From: Clostridioides difficile ATCC 9689 = DSM 1296
GTDB taxonomy: Bacteria > Bacillota > Clostridia > Peptostreptococcales > Peptostreptococcaceae
Direction: 5' to 3'
Length of the DNA: 64,000 bases
Assembly: GCF_001077535.1 (NCBI RefSeq)
Contig: NZ_CP011968.1
Span: forward strand, 1,984,001-2,048,000
In this document: positions 41,055 through 59,550 of the stretch, piece after piece
Numbering within the stretch: position 1 is the stretch's first letter
Layout: every line of letters begins with the position of its first letter
The notes under the pieces: generated by a model
What the model saw: the letters and a program-made list of their open reading frames with translations, nothing else
Told to the model about the DNA's origin: nothing
The model's database searches: none
Made by a program: the position numbers and the translations under genes

Positions 41055-41207
41055 ATCTTATCCAGAGAGGTGGAGGGACTGGCCCTATGAAACCCGGCAA
41101 CCAGTATATTTATATACATTGGTGCTAAATCCTGCGGCGAAAGCTGAGAGATGAGTATAATTAAGCTTATACAGAGCCTGAGTTATATACTCAGGCTTTA
41201 TTTATTT
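41055..41207 (+). promoter_or_regulatory. SAM-I (S-box) riboswitch
   Basis: The aptamer core is complete: CTTATCCAGAGAGGTGGAGG at its 5' end, then ACTGGCCCTATGAAACCCGGCA, ACCAG...TGGTGCTAAATCC, and GAAAGCTGAGAGATGAG closing P1 near 41155. The expression platform ends in the terminator at 41174-41206. With SAM bound, the terminator forms and metY-metA are switched off. Confidence 0.96.
41174..41206 (+). terminator. Intrinsic terminator of the SAM riboswitch
   Basis: GAGCCTGAGT (41174-41183) pairs with ACTCAGGCTT (41189-41198), followed by TTATTTATTTT. Confidence 0.92.
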
Positions 41208-51261: not shown

Positions 51262-51289
51262 TTGACAATTATATTTTCTTTGTTATAAT
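51262..51289 (+). promoter_or_regulatory. Promoter of the aromatic amino acid operon leader
   Basis: TTGACA (51262-51267), a 16-nt spacer and TATAAT (51284-51289) are both consensus. The transcript would start near 51296, about 325 nt before aroF. No usable promoter is visible between the terminator at 51553 and aroF. Confidence 0.85.
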
Positions 51290-51334
51290 TATTAAACAAG
51301 AAGAATAATAAATTATAAAAATGGAGGATAATAC

Positions 51335-51421
51335 TATGAAAGGAATATTAAAAGAACTAACAGCAAAACTTTATAGCTTTTTTTACTTTATGTTCTGGGG
51401 CTTTTATTTTAGCGCTGGCTA
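51335..51421 (+). CDS. Aromatic-rich leader peptide of the aro operon (attenuator)
   Basis: ATG 51335 is preceded by GGAGG at 8 nt and opens a 28-codon frame ending in TAA at 51419-51421. Residues 13-25 read YSFFYFMFWGFYF: six Phe, three Tyr and one Trp in 13 codons. The frame lies between the consensus promoter and a strong terminator that ends 40 nt before aroF, first gene of an operon making Phe and Tyr from chorismate. This is the layout of leader-peptide attenuation as in E. coli pheA and trp: ribosomes would stall here when charged aromatic tRNAs are scarce and let transcription pass the terminator. A TTAGC/GCTAA hairpin overlaps the stop codon. I could not find a convincing antiterminator by eye, so the mechanism is inferred. 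A small membrane peptide is the main alternative. Confidence 0.75.
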
Positions 51422-51552
51422 TTTCTTTTACAAAAATATATGTACTTCCTTTCTGGTGAGGCCTTATTTTAGTGATTTTGAGCATAAGTAAATTTTATAA
51501 AAATGATTATTTTATATATTTATATAAGATTTAGTGCTTGATAGATTATTTT

Positions 51553-51584
51553 AGAGAACTCATTAGTGAGTTCTCTTTTTTATT
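51553..51584 (+). terminator. Attenuator terminator before aroF
   Basis: A perfect 10-bp stem, AGAGAACTCA (51553-51562) with TGAGTTCTCT (51567-51576), with a 4-nt loop is followed by TTTTTATTTT. It lies inside the aro transcript, downstream of the leader peptide and upstream of aroF. Confidence 0.92.
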
Positions 51585-51620
51585 TTAAATATAAAATTAT
51601 AATATTGGGAGGTAGTAAAA

Positions 51621-52634
51621 ATGATAGTAGTATTAAAAATGGGAGCAGATAAAAATGAAGTTAAAAAATTAATTGAGGCTATTGGGAGAGAAGGAGTAGA
51701 AGTTAATCCCATAGATGGAACAGAATTAACTGTTTTAGGTTTAGTTGGAGATACTAGTAAAATAGATGCCAAAAGAATAGAAGCAAATAAGGTAGTTGAA
51801 AAAGTTATGCATGTGGTAGAGCCTTTTAAAAAGGCCAATAGAAAATTTCATCCAGAACCTTCAATCATAAATGTTAATGGAATGGAAATTGGTTCAAAGA
51901 AAATTGCTATGATAGCTGGGCCTTGTTCTGTTGAAACAGAAGACCAAATAGTATCTATAGCTAAAGATGTGAAAAAATCAGGTGCAGGATTTTTGAGAGG
52001 TGGAGCATTCAAACCAAGAACATCACCATACGCTTTCCAAGGATTGAAATATGATGGATTGGATTTATTAAAAAAAGCAAAAGAAAAAACAGGGCTTCCT
52101 ATAGTTACAGAAATAATGTCAACACAAGATATAGATATATTTGAAGAAAATGTAGATGTAATTCAAGTTGGAGCTAGAAACATGCAAAACTTTGATTTAT
52201 TAAAAGAATTAGGTAAAACAAATAAAACAATACTTTTAAAAAGAGGATTATCTGCTACAATTGAAGAGTGGCTAATGTCAGCAGAGTATATAATGGCTGG
52301 AGGAAATGAAAATGTAGTTCTTTGTGAAAGAGGTATAAGAACTTTTGAAACATATACTAGAAATACTTTGGATTTAAGTGCAATTTTAGCTGTGAAGAAA
52401 CTTAGTCATTTACCAGTTATAGTTGACCCAAGTCATGCAGCAGGTAAATCATGGATGGTTGACTCTTTATCTAAGGCAGCAATTGCAGTTGGAGCAGATG
52501 GTCTAATAATCGAAGTTCATAATGACCCAGCACATGCACTTTGTGATGGAAAACAATCGATTAAGCCAAATGAATATGATGAATTGATAAGTGAATTAAA
52601 GACTATCGCATCAGCAGTTGGTAGAGAAATATAA
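51621..52634 (+). CDS. aroF: 3-deoxy-7-phosphoheptulonate (DAHP) synthase, type I beta
   Basis: An N-terminal ferredoxin-like regulatory domain (residues 1-70, MIVVLKMGADKNEVKKLIEA) precedes the DAHP synthase barrel: IAGPCSVETEDQI, RGGAFKPRTSPYAFQG, TEIMSTQDI, LLKRGLSATIEEWL and PVIVDPSHAAGKS. It condenses phosphoenolpyruvate with erythrose-4-phosphate, the entry to the shikimate pathway. The extra domain makes it the Thermotoga-like class inhibited by Tyr or Phe. At 337 residues it is normal. GGGAGG precedes the ATG. First structural gene behind the leader peptide and attenuator. Confidence 0.95.
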   Translation: MIVVLKMGADKNEVKKLIEAIGREGVEVNPIDGTELTVLGLVGDTSKIDAKRIEANKVVEKVMHVVEPFKKANRKFHPEPSIINVNGMEIGSKKIAMIAGPCSVETEDQIVSIAKDVKKSGAGFLRGGAFKPRTSPYAFQGLKYDGLDLLKKAKEKTGLPIVTEIMSTQDIDIFEENVDVIQVGARNMQNFDLLKELGKTNKTILLKRGLSATIEEWLMSAEYIMAGGNENVVLCERGIRTFETYTRNTLDLSAILAVKKLSHLPVIVDPSHAAGKSWMVDSLSKAAIAVGADGLIIEVHNDPAHALCDGKQSIKPNEYDELISELKTIASAVGREI

Positions 52635-52655: not shown

Positions 52656-53720
52656 GTGGAAGAAAAACTATTAGTAAATTTAAAAGAAAATAGCTACAAT
52701 ATATTTATTAAAAAAAATATACTAAAGAATATAGGAGAAGAAATAAAAAAAATATATTTTGGAAATAAGATTTTTATTGTAACTGATGAAAATATAGCAA
52801 AATTATACTTGGATAAAGTAAAAAATAATTTAAGTGAATCTGGATTTGAAATTAAATCTTTAATATTAAAATCTGGTGAAGAAACAAAATCATTTAATAC
52901 TCTTCCTAAAATATACGATAGTTTACTTGACTTTAAGTTAACTAGAAAAGATTTGATTATTACTTTAGGAGGAGGGGTAATAGGTGATTTAGGTGGATTT
53001 GCAGCAGCAACTTTTTTAAGAGGTATAAGTTTTATTCAAATTCCAACATCTTTATTAGCACAAGTTGATAGTTCTGTAGGTGGAAAAGTTGGAGTTGACC
53101 TTGAGAGAGGCAAAAACTTAGTGGGAAGCTTTTACCAACCAAAGGCTGTGTTTATCGACCCAAATGTATTATTATCACTTCCAGAAAAATTCTATAGAGA
53201 TGGAATGGCAGAAGTTATAAAATATGGATGTATAAAAGACAAAACTTTTTTCAATAAACTTTTAAGTTTAAAAAATAGAGAAGAAGTAATGCAACATATA
53301 GAATACATTATACATAAATGTTGCTTTATTAAAAAAACTGTAGTTGAAGCTGATGAAAAAGACTTTGGAGATAGAATGCTTCTAAACTTTGGCCATACAT
53401 TAGGTCATGCTATTGAGAAATACTACAATTTTACGGGTTATACCCATGGAGAAGCTGTTGCCATAGGAATGTATAAGATAACTTTAGAAAGTGAAAAGAT
53501 AGGAATTACAAAAAAAGGGACATCAGAACTTATAAAATCAATTTTAATGAATTATAATTTGCCTTATGAGATTGAATTAAGAGATAATAAATCTATAGTA
53601 GATGCTATATCTCTTGATAAAAAAAATCTAGGTGATACATTAAAAATAATACTTTTAAAAGATATTGGAGAGAGTATTATATATAATACTACTTCTAAAT
53701 TTTTTCAGGAGGTAAGATAA
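52656..53720 (+). CDS. aroB: 3-dehydroquinate synthase
   Basis: The NAD-binding GGGVIGDLGGFAAATFLRGI, the substrate stretch PTSLLAQVDSSVGGKVGVD, and metal ligands in GMAEVIKYG (Glu) and NFGHTLGHAIE (His) with YTHGEAVAIGM are all present. It cyclises DAHP to 3-dehydroquinate using NAD and a divalent metal. At 354 residues it is normal. It starts at GTG 52656 with AAAGGATGG upstream. Its stop overlaps the aroA start (TAATG), so the two are translationally coupled. Confidence 0.96.
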   Translation: MEEKLLVNLKENSYNIFIKKNILKNIGEEIKKIYFGNKIFIVTDENIAKLYLDKVKNNLSESGFEIKSLILKSGEETKSFNTLPKIYDSLLDFKLTRKDLIITLGGGVIGDLGGFAAATFLRGISFIQIPTSLLAQVDSSVGGKVGVDLERGKNLVGSFYQPKAVFIDPNVLLSLPEKFYRDGMAEVIKYGCIKDKTFFNKLLSLKNREEVMQHIEYIIHKCCFIKKTVVEADEKDFGDRMLLNFGHTLGHAIEKYYNFTGYTHGEAVAIGMYKITLESEKIGITKKGTSELIKSILMNYNLPYEIELRDNKSIVDAISLDKKNLGDTLKIILLKDIGESIIYNTTSKFFQEVR

Positions 53721-55033
53721 TGGGAAGTCTAAAAATATATCCAAGTAAATTATCTGGAGATGTAAAAATACCACCATCAAAAAGTATGGCACATAGGGCA
53801 GTTATTTGTTCATCTCTAAGCAATGGAAAAAGTAGAATTTCTAATATAGATTTTTCTGATGATATAATAGCTACTATAAGAGCAATGACATCATTAGGAG
53901 CTATTATAGAAAAGAAAGAAGATATTTTAGAAATTTCGGGAATTTTTTCTAAAGAAGGTATTTTAAATAGAGAGAATCAGTTGAATCAACCTAAATTGAC
54001 AATAGATTGTAATGAATCAGGCTCTACATTGAGATTTTTAGTACCTATATCTTTAGCATTTGATGGTGTAAAAAGGTTTATAGGTAGAGGAAATCTTGGA
54101 AAAAGACCACTTGATACTTATTATGAGATATTTGACAGACAGAATATAAAATATAGTTACAAAGAAAATCAGTTAGATTTGATTATATCAGGTAAGCTTA
54201 AACCAGATGAATTTAGAGTAAAAGGAAATATAAGTTCTCAGTTTATCACAGGTTTACTGTTTATATTGCCTACGCTAGAGAGTGATTCAAAGATAATAAT
54301 TACTACTGAGCTAGAATCTAAAGGATATTTAGATTTAACTCTTTCAACGATAAAAGATTTTGGGGTAGAAATTATAAACAATAACTATAAAGAATTTATT
54401 ATAAAAGGAAATCAAACGTATAAAGCGAGAGATTATAAAGTAGAAGGAGATTATTCTCAAGGAGCATTTTATTTATCAGCAGATGCTATAGGAGAAGATA
54501 TTAGCATATTAGACCTTAAAGAAGATTCTCTTCAAGGGGATAGTGAAGTAGTTGAAATTTTATCTAGGATGGGAATGGAAATATTAAGAGAAGGCAACAA
54601 AATAAAAGGAATAACAAATGGTTTAAATGGTACTTTGATAGATGCATCTCAATGCCCAGATATAATACCTGTATTATCTGTAGTAGCATCCTTAAGTATA
54701 GGGAGGACTACAATAATTAATGCTGGTAGGCTTAGAATTAAAGAATGTGATAGACTTCATGCAATAAATGTTGAGTTAAATAAACTTGGAGCAAATATAG
54801 AGGAGAAAGAGGATAGTTTGATAATCGAAGGAGTAAGCAAGTTAAATGGTGGAGTAGAGGTGTGGAGTCACAAAGACCATAGAATTGCTATGACACTTGC
54901 AATTGCTTCTTGTAGATGTGATAAACCAATAATATTAAAAGATTTTGAGTGTGTATCAAAATCTTATCCACATTTTTTTAAAGATTTTAAGATGTTAGGA
55001 GGTCGAATTGATGAGTGGAATATGGGGAAATAA
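53720..55033 (+). CDS. aroA: 3-phosphoshikimate 1-carboxyvinyltransferase (EPSP synthase)
   Basis: The two-domain EPSP fold shows KIPPSKSMAHRAVICSSLS at the N-terminus, DCNESGSTLRFLVPISLAF, KRPLDTYYEIF, VEGDYSQGAFYLSADAI, RLRIKECDRLHAI and HKDHRIAMTLAIAS. It joins shikimate-3-phosphate and phosphoenolpyruvate. In the conserved active-site segment the usual GNAGTA is NESGST, typical of class II-like Firmicutes enzymes. At 437 residues it is normal. The last 23 nt overlap aroC in another frame. Confidence 0.95.
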   Translation: MGSLKIYPSKLSGDVKIPPSKSMAHRAVICSSLSNGKSRISNIDFSDDIIATIRAMTSLGAIIEKKEDILEISGIFSKEGILNRENQLNQPKLTIDCNESGSTLRFLVPISLAFDGVKRFIGRGNLGKRPLDTYYEIFDRQNIKYSYKENQLDLIISGKLKPDEFRVKGNISSQFITGLLFILPTLESDSKIIITTELESKGYLDLTLSTIKDFGVEIINNNYKEFIIKGNQTYKARDYKVEGDYSQGAFYLSADAIGEDISILDLKEDSLQGDSEVVEILSRMGMEILREGNKIKGITNGLNGTLIDASQCPDIIPVLSVVASLSIGRTTIINAGRLRIKECDRLHAINVELNKLGANIEEKEDSLIIEGVSKLNGGVEVWSHKDHRIAMTLAIASCRCDKPIILKDFECVSKSYPHFFKDFKMLGGRIDEWNMGK

Positions 55034-56090
55034 TTTAAAAGTATCAATTTTTGGAGAATCTCATGGAAATGCTATAGGTATAAATATAGATGGTCTTCCT
55101 TCGGGGATTGAACTTGACCTTGATAATATTGATAAAGAAATGAAGAGAAGAGCACCTGGAAAAAATTCTATATCTACTTCAAGAAATGAAAGTGATATAC
55201 CAGAAATTCTAAGTGGATATTTTAATGGAAGAACTACAGGAACGCCATTATGTGCAATCATAAGAAATAGTGATACTCGTTCAAAAGATTATGGAGAGCT
55301 TAAAAACTTAATGAGACCAGGACATGCAGATTTCACAGGTAATGTGAGATATTCTGGATTTAATGACTATAGAGGTGGAGGTCATTTTTCAGGTAGGATA
55401 ACAGCTCCATTAGTATTTTGTGGGGCTATATGTAAACAAATTTTATCACAAAAAGGAATAGAGATAGGAGCACACATAAAAAAAATTAAAAATATAGAAG
55501 ATATGAGTTTTGATTATGTAAATATTTCAAAACAACAGTTATCAAATTTGCAAACTTTGGAACTACCTTTACTTGATTTATCAAAGGAAGAAGCCATGAA
55601 AAATACGATTATAGATGCAAAAAATCAAGGAGATTCAGTTGGTGGTATAATTGAGTGTGCAGTAGTAGGTATTAATGTAGGGCTTGGAAATCCATTTTTT
55701 GACTCTGTTGAATCTACTTTATCACATTTATTGTTTTCTGTTCCTGCTGTAAAAGGTGTAGAGTTTGGTTTAGGTTTTGAACTTGCAGATATGTATGGCT
55801 CTCAAAGTAATGATGAAATGTATTATGAAGGAAATCAAGTTAAGAGCAAAACAAATAACAATGGAGGAATTATAGGAGGGATTACTACTGGAATGCCAAT
55901 AATTTTCAAAGTGGCAATTAAGCCAACTCCATCAATTAGCAGACAACAAAACACAGTTAATATAAAAGATAAAAAGGACGATATTTTATATATTAAAGGC
56001 AGACATGACCCTTGTATAGTTCAAAGGGCTATACCTGTAATAGAAGCAGTAACAGCCATTGGAATTTTTGATTTGATGAAAGGACGATAA
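55011..56090 (+). CDS. aroC: Chorismate synthase
   Basis: Family signatures are complete: FGESHGNAIGINIDGLPSG, RRAPGKNSISTSRNESD, MRPGHADFTGNVRY, DYRGGGHFSGRITAP, GDSVGGIIEC, GITTGMPIIFKVAIKPTPSI and GRHDPCIVQRAIPVIEA. It forms chorismate from EPSP with reduced FMN. ATG 55011 is preferred to TTG 55008 and follows GGAGGT inside the end of aroA, so translation is coupled. No flavin reductase domain is fused. Confidence 0.96.
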   Translation: MSGIWGNNLKVSIFGESHGNAIGINIDGLPSGIELDLDNIDKEMKRRAPGKNSISTSRNESDIPEILSGYFNGRTTGTPLCAIIRNSDTRSKDYGELKNLMRPGHADFTGNVRYSGFNDYRGGGHFSGRITAPLVFCGAICKQILSQKGIEIGAHIKKIKNIEDMSFDYVNISKQQLSNLQTLELPLLDLSKEEAMKNTIIDAKNQGDSVGGIIECAVVGINVGLGNPFFDSVESTLSHLLFSVPAVKGVEFGLGFELADMYGSQSNDEMYYEGNQVKSKTNNNGGIIGGITTGMPIIFKVAIKPTPSISRQQNTVNIKDKKDDILYIKGRHDPCIVQRAIPVIEAVTAIGIFDLMKGR

Positions 56091-56092
56091 TA

Positions 56093-57289
56093 ATGGAGGA
56101 TTTAACGAGATATAGAAATGAGATTGACAATATAGATAAAGAGCTTATTCAATTATTTGAAAAGAGAATGAATACAGTTCTTGAAATTGCCAGACATAAA
56201 ATGAAAAATAACACTACTATACTTCAAAAAGATAGAGAAGAAAAAGTACTAAGTAGAGCCGTAGATAATTTAGATAATAAAGCATATTCACAAGAAACGG
56301 TACAGTTTTTTAATTCTATAATGGAAATTAGTAGAGGATTACAAAAAAGATTTATAGATAATGATGGTGAGCAGAAAATCGAGTTTAGTTTAGATTCATC
56401 AAATAAGAATTTTGATTTGTCAAATGTAAATAAATATAAGTCTTTAAAAGATGAATTAAATAAAAAAAATATCCTAGTAGGCTTTCCTGGAAAATCAGGT
56501 TCATTTACAGAAGAAGCACTAAATAAATTCTTCAACAAAAAAATATCAAAAAAACAATTTAAAGAATTTGAAGATGTTTTCATAGCACTTAAAAATAAAG
56601 AAATAAACTATGGAATAATCCCCATAGAAAATTCATCTACAGGAGCTATCTCTGAAACTTATGACCTTTTGAGAAAGTACGGTTTTTATATAGTTGGAGA
56701 AGAATGTATAAAAATAGACCAAAATTTAATAGGGATAAAAGACACAAAGCTTGAAGATATAAAAGAAATATATTCTCATCCACAAGGTATAGGACAATGT
56801 AGTGAATTTTTAAAACAAAATAGTACATGGAAATTGATACCATTTAATAACACAGCAACAAGTGCAGAACTTGTAAGAAAACTTCAAGATAAAACAAAAG
56901 CAGCAATTGCAAGCAAAAAAGCTGCAAGTATTTATGGATTAGAAATAATAAGTCCTTGTATAAATGATATAGCAAACAACTATACAAGATTTGTAGTAAT
57001 CAGTAATCAAATACACATTGAAGAAGAATCAAACAAAATGAGTGTAGTATTTTCTGTTGAACATGAAGCAGGAAAACTTTATAAAGTACTTGGATACTTT
57101 GCTAAAAATAATATAAATATGACAAAAATAGAATCAAGACCTATGAAAAATGCCTCATGGAGATATTTCTTTTATATAGATTTTGAGTGTTCTATATACA
57201 ATGCTAAAGTGTACGATTTATTAGAATTGATAGAACATAATACAGCATATTTTAAATTTATGGGAGTATATAAAAATAAAACTGAATAG
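56093..57289 (+). CDS. pheA: Bifunctional chorismate mutase/prephenate dehydratase (P-protein)
   Basis: Residues 1-85 are an AroQ-type chorismate mutase (YRNEIDNIDKELIQLFEKRMN). A prephenate dehydratase domain covers about 115-300 (GKSGSFTEEALNKFF, IPIENSSTGAISETYDLL, and NNYTRFVVIS with the catalytic Thr-Arg-Phe). An ACT domain follows (GKLYKVLGYFAKNNINMTKIESRPMK), with ESRP the Phe-binding motif for feedback inhibition. It converts chorismate to phenylpyruvate. At 398 residues it is slightly long because of the linker at 90-115. It starts 2 nt after aroC. Confidence 0.95.
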   Translation: MEDLTRYRNEIDNIDKELIQLFEKRMNTVLEIARHKMKNNTTILQKDREEKVLSRAVDNLDNKAYSQETVQFFNSIMEISRGLQKRFIDNDGEQKIEFSLDSSNKNFDLSNVNKYKSLKDELNKKNILVGFPGKSGSFTEEALNKFFNKKISKKQFKEFEDVFIALKNKEINYGIIPIENSSTGAISETYDLLRKYGFYIVGEECIKIDQNLIGIKDTKLEDIKEIYSHPQGIGQCSEFLKQNSTWKLIPFNNTATSAELVRKLQDKTKAAIASKKAASIYGLEIISPCINDIANNYTRFVVISNQIHIEEESNKMSVVFSVEHEAGKLYKVLGYFAKNNINMTKIESRPMKNASWRYFFYIDFECSIYNAKVYDLLELIEHNTAYFKFMGVYKNKTE

Positions 57290-57335
57290 ATAAGATAAAT
57301 TTTTATTTAATTTATAATTATTAGGAGGTGTAAGT

Positions 57336-58145
57336 ATGAATTTTTTCGGTCTAGTAGGTGAAAAACTCTCTCACAGTGTTTCACCTCAAATCCACAAGAG
57401 AGTATTCGAGATATTGAATATTGAAAGTGCTTATAAAAACTTTGAAATTTCAAAAGAAGATATATCTAAGCTAGACGGTGCTATAAAATTATTAGGAATA
57501 CAAGGGGTAAATGTTACTGTACCATATAAGGAGCGTATTATGAAATATCTTGATTTTATATCACCAGAGGCAAAACGTATAGGAGCAGTTAATACAATTT
57601 TACTCAGAGAAAATATGTTATATGGTTACAATACAGATTACTTTGGTCTTGATAGTATGTTTAAAATGGCTAATATTGATGTTCAAGGAAAAGTAGCAGT
57701 TATATTAGGAACTGGAGGTGCTTCTAAAGCTGCTCTTACATATTTTATTGATTCTGGTATAGAAAAGCTTTATGTTTCAACTAGAAAAAAGGATGATAAA
57801 AAATTATTAAATAGTAAAGCTATATTAATAGATTATGAAGAACTTAAACATATAAAAGGAGATATAATATTAAATGCTACACCAGTAGGTATGTACCCTA
57901 ATGTAGGAATTTCACCAGTGTCAAAATCTATTATACAAAATTTTGATATATTAATAGATTTAATTTACAATCCTGGAGAAACAGAGTTTTTAAGAATTGG
58001 TAATAGTATGGGTAAAAAAACTTGTGATGGATTATATATGCTGGTGGGGCAAGCAATAAAATCTCAGGAAATTTGGCAAGATACTAAAATAGATAATAGT
58101 ATTTTAGATGTTATATATAATGAACTAAAATTAGAATTTTTGTAA
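57336..58145 (+). CDS. aroE: Shikimate dehydrogenase
   Basis: The substrate-binding KLSHSVSPQIHKRVF and GVNVTVPYKERIM (catalytic Lys), then GAVNTIL and YNTDYFG, with the NADP-binding GTGGASKAAL and NATPVGMYPN. It reduces 3-dehydroshikimate to shikimate. At 269 residues it is normal. GGAGGTG precedes the ATG after a 46-nt gap. Confidence 0.95.
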   Translation: MNFFGLVGEKLSHSVSPQIHKRVFEILNIESAYKNFEISKEDISKLDGAIKLLGIQGVNVTVPYKERIMKYLDFISPEAKRIGAVNTILLRENMLYGYNTDYFGLDSMFKMANIDVQGKVAVILGTGGASKAALTYFIDSGIEKLYVSTRKKDDKKLLNSKAILIDYEELKHIKGDIILNATPVGMYPNVGISPVSKSIIQNFDILIDLIYNPGETEFLRIGNSMGKKTCDGLYMLVGQAIKSQEIWQDTKIDNSILDVIYNELKLEFL

Positions 58146-58156
58146 GGGAGATTGTT

Positions 58157-58690
58157 ATGATAAATAAAACAAAAGAAAAATTGATATTAATAGGTATGCC
58201 AGGTAGTGGAAAAACTACAATTGGTAAACTTTTGGCCAAAGAATATAATTGTAGTTTCTGTGATATGGATGATTATATAATTCAAATATCTCAAAAAAGT
58301 ATAGCAGAGTTGTTTTCAGAAGGAGAAGATATCTTTAGGAACTATGAGACTCAAGCATGTAGAGAACTTTCTATAAGTGATAAAACAGTGATATCTACAG
58401 GTGGAGGTGTAATAAAAAAGGATGTTAATATGGAAATACTAAAAGAAACAGGTATAATAATTTTTATTGATAGACCTATACAAAAGATTTTGGAAGATAT
58501 AAATATTAATTCAAGACCATTATTAAAAAACGGAAAAGATAGATTGTATAATCTTTATAATGAGAGAATAAATCTTTATAAAAAATTTTCAGATATAGAG
58601 ATTTTAAATGATAAATCATTAAATAATGCTGTATATAATATTACAAATGCAGTCAGTGAAAATTTTAAATTTGACTTTAAAGAAAAATAA
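58157..58690 (+). CDS. aroK: Shikimate kinase
   Basis: P-loop GMPGSGKTTIGKLLAKE, DMDDYI (Mg/shikimate), AELFSEGEDIFRNYE, and STGGGVIKKD are the shikimate kinase landmarks, with the RPLL lid region near residue 118. It phosphorylates shikimate with ATP. At 177 residues it is normal. It lies 11 nt after aroE. Confidence 0.95.
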   Translation: MINKTKEKLILIGMPGSGKTTIGKLLAKEYNCSFCDMDDYIIQISQKSIAELFSEGEDIFRNYETQACRELSISDKTVISTGGGVIKKDVNMEILKETGIIIFIDRPIQKILEDININSRPLLKNGKDRLYNLYNERINLYKKFSDIEILNDKSLNNAVYNITNAVSENFKFDFKEK

Positions 58691-58710
58691 TCTAGGGGGA
58701 AGTAAAAATA

Positions 58711-59550
58711 ATGAATATTGTTATTGTAGGACTAGGAGTTATAGGAGGCTCTTTTGCTAAAGCATTAAAAAAAGCTGGATATGAAAATGTATTTGGAGTA
58801 GATGTAGATTTAGAAACTTTAAAAAAAGCAGAAAAAGCAAAAATCATAAAAAAAGGATGTACTACAGGTAAAGAGTTATTTAAAAAAGCTGATTTAATTA
58901 TACTATCTATATATCCTAGATTAGTTGTAGATTTTCTAAATAAGAATAAAAACTTTTTTAAAAAAGGGACTATAATTACTGATACTACAGGAATAAAAGA
59001 AACACTTATCAATGATGTGTTGCAAATTATTCCAGATGATATAGATTTTATATTTGGACATCCAATGGCAGGTAGGGAAAAAAAGGGTATTGATTTTGCA
59101 AGTGAACAAGTTTTTAATGGTGCAAATTATATAATTACTCCAACTGGCAGAAACAACATAAAAAATTTAGAGTTAGTTGAAAATTTAATTTTAGAGATTG
59201 GATTTAAAAGAGTAAAAAAGTTAACTTCACAAAAACATGATGAGATTATAGCTTTTACTTCTCAGTTACCTCATGTTATGGCAGTTGCTCTTATAAATAG
59301 TGATGAAGAAGGTAGAGATACGGGTAAATTTATTGGAGATAGTTATAGAGATTTAACTAGAATTGCAAATATGAATGAAGACTTATGGAGTGAACTTTTT
59401 TTAGGAAATAGAGATAATTTACTAAAAGTTATAGAAAACTTTGAATCAGAAGTAAATTTAGTAAAAGAAGCTATATTTAACAATGATAAAAATAAATTAA
59501 TAGAGTATTTTAAAAAATCATCAATAAGAAGAGAAGCTTTAGAAAAATAA
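58711..59550 (+). CDS. tyrA: Prephenate dehydrogenase
   Basis: The NAD-binding GLGVIGGSFAKALKKAG opens the protein. DTTGIKETL, FGHPMAGREKKGIDFA (catalytic His) and SQLPHVMAVALINS with GDSYRDLTRIA complete the fold. It oxidises prephenate to 4-hydroxyphenylpyruvate for tyrosine. At 279 residues it lacks the C-terminal ACT domain, so it may not be feedback-inhibited through that route. It is the last gene of the aromatic operon. No dehydroquinate dehydratase (aroD/aroQ) is in the cluster. Confidence 0.93.
   Translation: MNIVIVGLGVIGGSFAKALKKAGYENVFGVDVDLETLKKAEKAKIIKKGCTTGKELFKKADLIILSIYPRLVVDFLNKNKNFFKKGTIITDTTGIKETLINDVLQIIPDDIDFIFGHPMAGREKKGIDFASEQVFNGANYIITPTGRNNIKNLELVENLILEIGFKRVKKLTSQKHDEIIAFTSQLPHVMAVALINSDEEGRDTGKFIGDSYRDLTRIANMNEDLWSELFLGNRDNLLKVIENFESEVNLVKEAIFNNDKNKLIEYFKKSSIRREALEK

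Follow-up and report, generated by a model that had tools for sequence, protein, structure and literature searches.

We found that the aromatic amino acid operon of Clostridioides difficile is preceded by a leader which, as judged from sequence comparison, is very probably (about 0.86) a ribosome-mediated transcription attenuator sensing the supply of Phe and Tyr. In the trp, phe and his operons of enteric bacteria, ribosome stalling on codons for the end product controls a terminator, and an initial annotation of this DNA had proposed a similar device rich in Phe, Tyr and Trp codons. That proposal was supported by the retention of aromatic codons in relatives and by an antiterminator that is present and covaries with the terminator. 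In particular, an open reading frame (ORF) with a ribosome binding site lies between the promoter and the first gene, as judged by sequence and frame conservation; codons for the end products are clustered in the relatives; and an intrinsic terminator precedes the first structural gene. Additionally, the predicted antiterminator, formed by regions 2 and 3 of the leader RNA, and the terminator, formed by regions 3 and 4, are mutually exclusive, and a protector pairing between regions 1 and 2 was also found.

The leader and the downstream operon in C. difficile

The window, which is the whole stretch of DNA that was analyzed, comprises 64,000 nt of C. difficile ATCC 9689 = DSM 1296 (contig NZ_CP011968.1, positions 1,984,001 to 2,048,000). 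Coordinates refer to the window, and leaders gathered from the database searches are given by L numbers where they need to be told apart. The locus contains the following features:

51262..51289, + strand: sigma-70-type promoter, TTGACA-16-TATAAT, extended (TG before the -10), with 12 of 12 consensus bases
51323..51327, + strand: Shine-Dalgarno (SD) sequence GGAGG of the leader ORF, read from the sequence
51336..51491, + strand: leader ORF of 51 codons, MKGILKELTAKLYSFFYFMFWGFYFSAGYFFYKNICTSFLVRPYFSDFEHK, from ORF analysis and homologues in other genomes
51372..51431, + strand: aromatic control codons 13-32, of which 14 of 20 encode Phe, Tyr or Trp, conserved across the leader family
51621..52634, + strand: aroF, 3-deoxy-7-phosphoheptulonate synthase, first gene of the operon (NF006421, E = 4e-156)
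52656..59550, + strand: aroB, aroA, aroC, pheA, aroE, aroK and tyrA (NCBIfam)

The promoter and the GGAGG sequence 5' of the ATG had both been pointed out in the initial annotation, and both were recovered, as was the perfect 10-bp terminator at 51553-51576 with its T tract. Both promoter hexamers were identical across eight aligned Clostridioides genomes, and the spacer differed at one position (T/C). Taken as a class, promoter-like sites were not above chance between 51000 and 51700 (7 versus 6.4 expected in shuffles), and 51262-51289 was the sole 12-of-12 site in this interval. Terminator-like sites numbered three in the same interval, versus 0.1 expected in shuffles, and two of them lay in the upstream gene.

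The leader ORF had been described as a frame of 28 codons; it is instead open from the ATG at 51336 to the TAA at 51489-51491 and comprises 51 codons, 18 of them for aromatic residues (11 Phe, 6 Tyr and 1 Trp). The earlier count of 10 aromatic residues in codons 13-25 (6 Phe, 3 Tyr and 1 Trp) was right. The order of the eight genes, aroF-aroB-aroA-aroC-pheA-aroE-aroK-tyrA, agreed with NCBIfam, and the pheA product was identified as a chorismate mutase/prephenate dehydratase; aroK and tyrA matched shikimate kinase and prephenate dehydrogenase models at scores below the cut-offs of those models. The AroF protein was 97-98% identical to the closest named loci, which are C. difficile strains.

The reported lack of a T-box was confirmed, as Rfam covariance models gave no match of any family, T-box included, to the window leader at E up to 5. 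Pfam and NCBIfam gave no match to two leader peptides. The sole Rfam match in the window at gathering scores was a SAM riboswitch at 41055-41157 (82.4 bits).

Distribution and gene context of the leader family

The 51-aa peptide was found in seven other genomes of the genus with E-values of 6e-28 to 3e-23, and by itself it matched 26 of 100 genomes searched at E ≤ 0.001, its own genome included. For the wider searches, a peptide model was built from 22 leader peptides. In the order, this model matched 81 of 297 genomes, from 51 of 135 genera, and left 216 of the 297 without a match; it also matched 49 of 391 genomes of the class and 13 of 398 in a phylum sample; the three genome samples overlap. 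The exact DNA core pattern was present in 13 of the 391 class genomes and in 18 of 71 genomes of the family, versus zero matches for the reversed control pattern in the same genomes, and it occurred once in the window's own genome.

Peptide searches, the core DNA pattern and an aroF search together yielded 167 distinct leaders, all of which were rescanned with the peptide model; four matches below 14.4 bits were dropped before counting (171 to 167). Because the loci were gathered and rescanned by a peptide model, the aromatic richness of these leaders is partly selected. Among the weakest rows retained, some (L213, L222 and L018) are doubtful or degenerate, and the leaders are phylogenetically related, the set being thinned for the covariation test by region-2 identity only. 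The leader of Asaccharospora irregularis is L051.

An aromatic-pathway gene was located downstream in 153 of the 167 leaders and was classed by a BLAST comparison with the eight enzymes of the window, the nearest match being taken. It was aroF in 134 leaders, pheA in 6, aroK in 6, aroE in 2, aroA in 2 (a tandem pair), tyrA in 2 and aroB in 1; most of the aroK cases resembled chorismate mutase-shikimate kinase fusions by eye. The other 14 leaders had no class by BLAST, in some cases because of a contig end or masking. An extra gene lay between the leader and aroF at L016, L025 and L079, where aroF was 827 to 890 nt away.

Several loci had an unusual arrangement. At L016, one leader precedes the extra gene and a second precedes aroF, and the protein of the extra gene (209 residues) showed a weak match to the tail of Iso_dh below the cut-off (E = 1.6e-4). 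Tandem leaders about 290 nt apart were found in two genomes of one genus, g16 (L118 and L130). At L018, the core looked degenerate (WDFYFRAG) and the stretch searched yielded no aromatic gene; this core is perhaps that of a decaying paralogue. At L045, a T-box leader (1018-1274) lies about 1.3 kb 5' of aroF, and no leader of the Phe/Tyr family was found there.

Other leaders stand before genes of a different kind. A LarA-like gene follows L027, L028 and L029 (Lar_N, E = 1.1e-54 for the L029 protein), and in the one genome checked (L236, 7349-8617 and 5865-7322) it is followed by a symporter-like gene whose product shares 47% identity over 400 residues with the SSF symporter following L139 in another family. 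A sodium symporter is the first gene after L129 (SBF family) and after L139 and L212 (SSF family), and the first genes after L133 and L204 resemble those of L139 and L212 by eye only. Aromatic amino acids, or acids related to them, are possible substrates of the symporters after these five leaders.

A predicted four-region RNA switch

Comparison across the family shows that the four predicted regions correspond to the classical alternatives 1:2, 2:3 and 3:4. In the window, they were assigned as follows:

51317..51346, + strand: region 1, the SD sequence, start codon and first codons; pairs with region 2 (-19.3 kcal/mol)
51445..51471, + strand: region 2, near the end of the ORF, with core CTGGTGAG at 51453-51460; from predicted pairing and the family test
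51553..51566, + strand: region 3, the terminator 5' arm and loop; 51559-51566 (CTCATTAG) pairs with 51453-51460
51567..51576, + strand: region 4, the terminator 3' arm, followed by a T tract from 51577; from the terminator scan

The initial annotation had left the antiterminator open and had noted a weak pairing of GTTCT (51391) with AGAAC. The antiterminator that we found is a different one, in which CUGGUGAG (51453-51460) pairs with CUCAUUAG (51559-51566). About 42 nt past the central Ser codon, many leaders carry CUUUUCUAAUGAGU, and the terminator 5' arm carries ACUCAUUAG. Taking the best pairing of the stretch before the terminator with the 5' half of the terminator, the antiterminator duplex had a mean energy of -11.5 kcal/mol in 161 leaders, versus -7.3 for shuffled sequences and -8.6 with the terminator of another leader, and it began in the +40 to +49 bin in 114 of the 161. 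The cognate duplex was in the best 5% in 61% of leaders against their own shuffles and in 26% against swapped terminators, the latter figure being low partly because many leaders share one consensus. The pairing was also kept with different letters, namely GGTAAAGCCCGTTTA in L209 and L217, AAGTATAATGAGC in L214, CAATCAAATGAGT in L046 and AAGTGAGGTTT in L230.

Region 2 has a second partner. Folding of the whole window leader placed region 2 in a duplex with the 5' end, and in other genera about 14 pairs join region 2 to the first codons, such as ACTTATTAGAAAGGGA in L021. The duplex between the start region and region 2 had a mean energy of -14.5 kcal/mol in 160 leaders, versus -9.1 when shuffled and versus -8.8 and -10.5 for the same start region against two other stretches of the leader. 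By this search, the 1:2 pairing was weak in L147, L214 and L046. Leaders with different region-2 sequences, such as L230, L016 and L149, retain both partners.

Covariation was assessed in 115 leaders, the set thinned to less than 75% region-2 identity. The cognate energies were -17.2 versus -11.8 kcal/mol for non-cognate pairs in R1:R2 and -10.6 versus -7.6 in R2:R3, with 0 of 5000 permutations as good in either case, whereas the R1:R3 control showed no signal (-6.3 versus -6.4). The cognate pairing fell in the best quintile in 82 of the 115 leaders for R1:R2 and in 70 for R2:R3.

A terminator of -6 kcal/mol or better was found in 161 of the 167 leaders, and the scan gave none in the other six. 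In a sample of 59 leaders, 58 had a terminator at ≤ -6 and 57 at ≤ -10 kcal/mol. The corresponding counts were 9 and 0 among 59 shuffled sequences, and 5 and 1 among 55 stretches taken from within the downstream gene.

A conserved hairpin inside the reading frame

We also found a conserved hairpin within the ORF, P1, of the form CUGGRGC-loop-GCNCYRG, in which the Phe/Tyr codons occupy the loop:

51395..51402, + strand: P1 5' arm CTGGGGCT, covering the Trp-Gly codons, from family pairing
51411..51418, + strand: P1 3' arm AGCGCTGG, covering the Ser-Ala-Gly codons, from family pairing
51429, + strand: candidate RNA polymerase pause at a U 11 nt past the P1 stem, inferred from family conservation

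The sequence around the central aromatic codons reads C-UGG-RGC-(aromatic codons)-AGC-NCY-RG, and the flanks form an eight-position stem, usually with a G-G mismatch. A 3-bp GCU...AGC hairpin and an AGCGCU palindrome, both seen by eye, were dropped in favor of this stem. The three copies of TTATTTTAG noted earlier are present at 51404, 51464 and 51546: the first makes up the loop of P1 and its 3' arm, the second shares bases with the end of region 2, and the third lies just 5' of, and extends into, region 3.

Codon choice in the arms was narrow. When leaders were selected by the peptide only, in a fixed register (108 matched and 59 did not), the Ser codon was AGC in 106 of 108, whereas 160 downstream genes used AGC for 17.6% of their Ser codons; the base 5' of TGG was C in 104 of 108, versus 42 of 312; and the Gly codon after Trp was GGC in 87 of 89, versus 18.5%. 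With Trp fixed by this selection, the arm-permutation signal was weak (72 of 5000 permutations as good), and the leaders without the Trp codon are therefore the main evidence for covariation of P1.

When P1 was placed by pairing alone, at least seven of eight pairs were formed in 142 of the 167 leaders, versus 41 with the 3' arm shuffled, and at least six in 159, versus 121; the loop was in frame in 153 of the 159, versus 46 of the 121. Since a six-of-eight match by itself is weak, being reached by 121 of 167 shuffles, the seven-of-eight count and the frame are more telling. The initial placement had instead given a bonus for AGC at the Ser codon and for in-frame loops; under these rules, 20 of the 167 leaders had their best hairpin elsewhere and 147 were used. 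This bonus inflates the P1 statistics of the 147 leaders, among them the paired fraction, which was 0.87 and fell to 0.49 or less when the register was slid by 1-3 nt. Among 48 distinct arm pairs, whose placement was partly optimized for pairing, 87.5% of positions were standard pairs, versus 78.8% (sd 1.1) with the 3' arms permuted, and 0 of 2000 permutations were as good.

The conserved TGG was replaced by TTG, CTG, CAA and others, and the opposite strand was often changed to match. Thus, TTG stands opposite GCA and CAA opposite TTT, and further compensations were CCAAAGCT opposite AGCTTTGG in L211, TTGGAGCT opposite AGCGCTGA in L165 and L169, CTGGGACT opposite GGTGCTGG in L115, and CTTAGGCT opposite AGCGTAAG in L046. 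In L152, the arm CTTGGGCT was retained despite another reading frame. The exceptions were L189, with TTG and GCT, and the CTG leaders L197, L196, L203 and L210, which are mismatched at the third pair.

P1 alone had an energy of -7.0 kcal/mol in the window. Its probability was 0.26-0.78 in shorter nascent stretches, 0.07 in RNA up to 51568 and 0.02 in the whole free leader; being low in the long leader and higher in nascent RNA, P1 would act early, if at all. Position +18, which is 11 nt past P1, was U in 140 of the 147 leaders, and the next base was G in 87 of the 147; in the window, the base after U 51429 is A. We take this spacing to be that of his-type pauses. TTNTTT, the NusG-type pause motif, was considered and rejected, as the T run is lost in leaders with Tyr codons at that place (L015 and L062).

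Control codons and the amino acids probably sensed

The frame of the core is kept: when the core pattern was allowed 0-3 nt inserts, 26 of 35 distinct places had 0 nt and 9 had 3 nt, and none had 1 or 2 nt. Aromatic codons are conserved in the relatives, with 98.8% of the core loop codons encoding Phe, Tyr or Trp in a set that is partly peptide-selected and under the placement bonus described above. The start codon is conserved as well, as a start with an SD-like 4-mer 5' of it was present in 160 of the 167 leaders, a figure from a permissive test, run without a control and inflated by the same bonus.

Over codons -45 to +20 around the Ser codon, with the P1 stem left out (2465 codons in 145 leaders), Phe accounted for 34.4%, Tyr for 28.1% and Trp for 1.1%. 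The stem Trp was present in 111 of the 145 leaders and was replaced elsewhere, often with compensation. The Trp-Gly and Ser-Ala-Gly codons appear to be held in place by the P1 stem, so Phe and Tyr probably constitute the signal, and Trp reflects mainly a constraint of the RNA. The Phe and Tyr parts of the earlier description of the leader thus stood, while Trp as a signal probably does not, given its rarity outside the stem and the replacement of TGG; ribosome stalling at the stem UGG could still occur. One tyrA-linked leader was counted and had 7 Tyr and 2 Phe codons, a sample too small to build on.

Proposed mechanism

To place the ribosome on the leader, we removed the RNA 5' of it and folded the remainder with the P site at every second codon; this procedure assumes that region 1 cannot reach region 2 round a stalled ribosome. 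In RNA extending to the terminator loop, the antiterminator had a probability of 0.98-0.99 with the ribosome at the scanned codons from the start to codon 35 (51438). At codon 37, two of the eight antiterminator pairs were available, and from codon 39 (51450) none were (P = 0). The aromatic cluster at 51372-51431 lies wholly within the antiterminator-permissive zone. Without a ribosome, region 1 held region 2, and the probability of the antiterminator was 0.11.

Once the 3' arm of the terminator was made, the terminator had a probability of 0.79-0.96 at equilibrium at every scanned ribosome position, and in the free window leader the terminator form was favored by 8.5 kcal/mol (-64.5 versus -56.0). 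As the terminator form wins at equilibrium, the switch must be kinetic and decided while polymerase moves. Region 1 (51317-51346) lies 5' of the footprint expected in the window for a ribosome on codons 13-32, so its masking would need a following ribosome or a steric block. The stop codon lies about 30 nt beyond the region 2 core in the window, so masking depends on timing.

We infer that tRNA charging throws the switch, and the kinetic steps, including pausing, are likewise presumed. RNA polymerase would pause just past P1 while a ribosome initiates, a pause that would help the decision, and the ribosome would then open P1. With plentiful charged tRNA-Phe and tRNA-Tyr, the ribosome would enter region 2 (51445-51471), the 3:4 terminator would form and transcription would end before aroF. 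With low charging, it would stall in codons 13-32, 5' of region 2; region 2 would capture region 3 on its emergence, and transcription would enter the eight genes. If the leader were not translated, region 1 would capture region 2 and the operon would stay off.

Alternative explanations

TnaC and SecM are sequence-specific arrest peptides, and the conserved FWGFYFSAGYF could similarly stall the ribosome as a nascent peptide with free Phe or Tyr as co-factor, in place of hungry codons. The core is indeed strongly conserved, with W and S invariant and Y, F, A and G nearly so in the 22 chosen rows. However, the W, G, S, A and G residues are explained by RNA pairing (AGC in 106/108 and C before TGG in 104/108), residues change along with the RNA, as where TTG faces GCA and CAA faces TTT, and the loop varies in length by whole codons. 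Conservation at the level of codons and the compensations led us to prefer an RNA hairpin, and arrest by the peptide appears quite improbable.

The same hairpin could be a binding site for a metabolite or protein, i.e., a riboswitch or antiterminator-protein site, with the ORF as a by-product. P1 is conserved and covaries, and the free window leader folds better than its own shuffles (z = -3.8), which would suit such a site, but the 98.8% aromatic loop codons, the use of both Phe and Tyr and the stepping of lengths by three point to translation, and no Rfam family matches the leader; we regard this explanation as very improbable. That the ORF is an ordinary gene for a small membrane protein beside an unrelated terminator is extremely improbable. 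Although the peptide is hydrophobic and conserved, its tail past region 2 varies even within the genus, where L007 and L008 have a frame eight codons shorter owing to a 1-nt insertion, and the covariation of regions 1, 2 and 3 would be needless for a protein-coding gene.

Comparison with known leaders

In Bacillota, amino-acid operons usually sense tRNA charging through T-boxes, whereas the window leader has no T-box match. A TRAP-regulated leader carries about 11 closely spaced (G/U)AG triplets. The attenuators of the enteric trp, phe and his operons share with the present leader an ORF of end-product codons, the 1:2, 2:3 and 3:4 pairings and a terminator before the first gene. Unlike these, the Clostridia leader uses its own start region as region 1, holds its control codons in the long 1:2 loop, has a separate conserved hairpin, P1, enclosing some of them, responds to two end products (Phe and Tyr) in the proposed scheme, and has mostly Clostridia as hosts.

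Leaders with related features have been described. The legend of Fig 6b in Stav et al. 2019 (PMC6429828) gives two candidate Phe/Tyr uORFs at shikimate genes, and the five genomes studied there include Clostridium novyi and the synergistete Thermovirga lienii. As in our leaders, these are F/Y uORFs before shikimate genes; the available part of that text gives no four-region switch or regulon. Our set holds one weak Synergistaceae row (L044, 14.5 bits), in which no terminator was found. Compared by description only, those uORFs may belong to the same family. In PMC8632094, uORFC-13-1 is represented by 24 sequences, from Acholeplasma and environmental samples only; by its description, it has a Phe-codon uORF, an extra base-paired substructure and a terminator before aroF. 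As both reports enter this comparison by description and not by consensus, the family may be partly described already.

Within Bacillota, a leucine-rich attenuator peptide at the branched-chain operon of Staphylococcus aureus (PMC5794164, 2018) and histidine leaders in bacilli (PMC2965389, 2010) concern other amino acids and genes. According to the available text of the latter, no leader-peptide attenuator had been known before it outside Proteobacteria and Actinobacteria, save the atypical ermC leader. The ilvB-II motif (uORFC-75-1) of Corynebacterium, as described in PMC11109978, is a uORF attenuator with a terminator and antiterminator, as here, but with Ile/Leu/Val codons and in another phylum. 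In a review of C. difficile riboswitches (PMC11477304), a term search of the accessible text found no mention of aroF. The strings WGFYFSAG, FYFSAGYF, WGYFYFSAG and FWGFYFS were absent from the literature searched, which comprised the main texts of mostly freely available papers, so this absence carries little weight.

Implications

We hold as a tentative joint reading, at somewhat under even odds, that a large leader class in Clostridia, present in none of the family libraries searched (Rfam, Pfam and NCBIfam), combines attenuation with hairpin-housed control codons, a pause at P1, the start region as region 1, and a regulon with transporters and a LarA-like gene. If this were true, a conserved hairpin within the ORF would hold control codons in its loop, and part of the peptide sequence would be dictated by RNA structure; the P1 pause would time the ribosome, with initiation and elongation both being read; and the leaders before transporters and the LarA-like gene would define a Phe/Tyr regulon.

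The same leader type stands before aromatic genes across many Clostridia, where it probably turns them on when Phe and Tyr are scarce. Given its presence in 81 of the 297 genomes of a single order, leader-peptide attenuation would seem to be a common means of controlling aromatic biosynthesis in Clostridia. The leader offers a searchable signature for predicting Phe/Tyr-regulated genes, including transporters with no assigned substrate, and it is a natural example of bases that serve RNA pairing and peptide coding at once.
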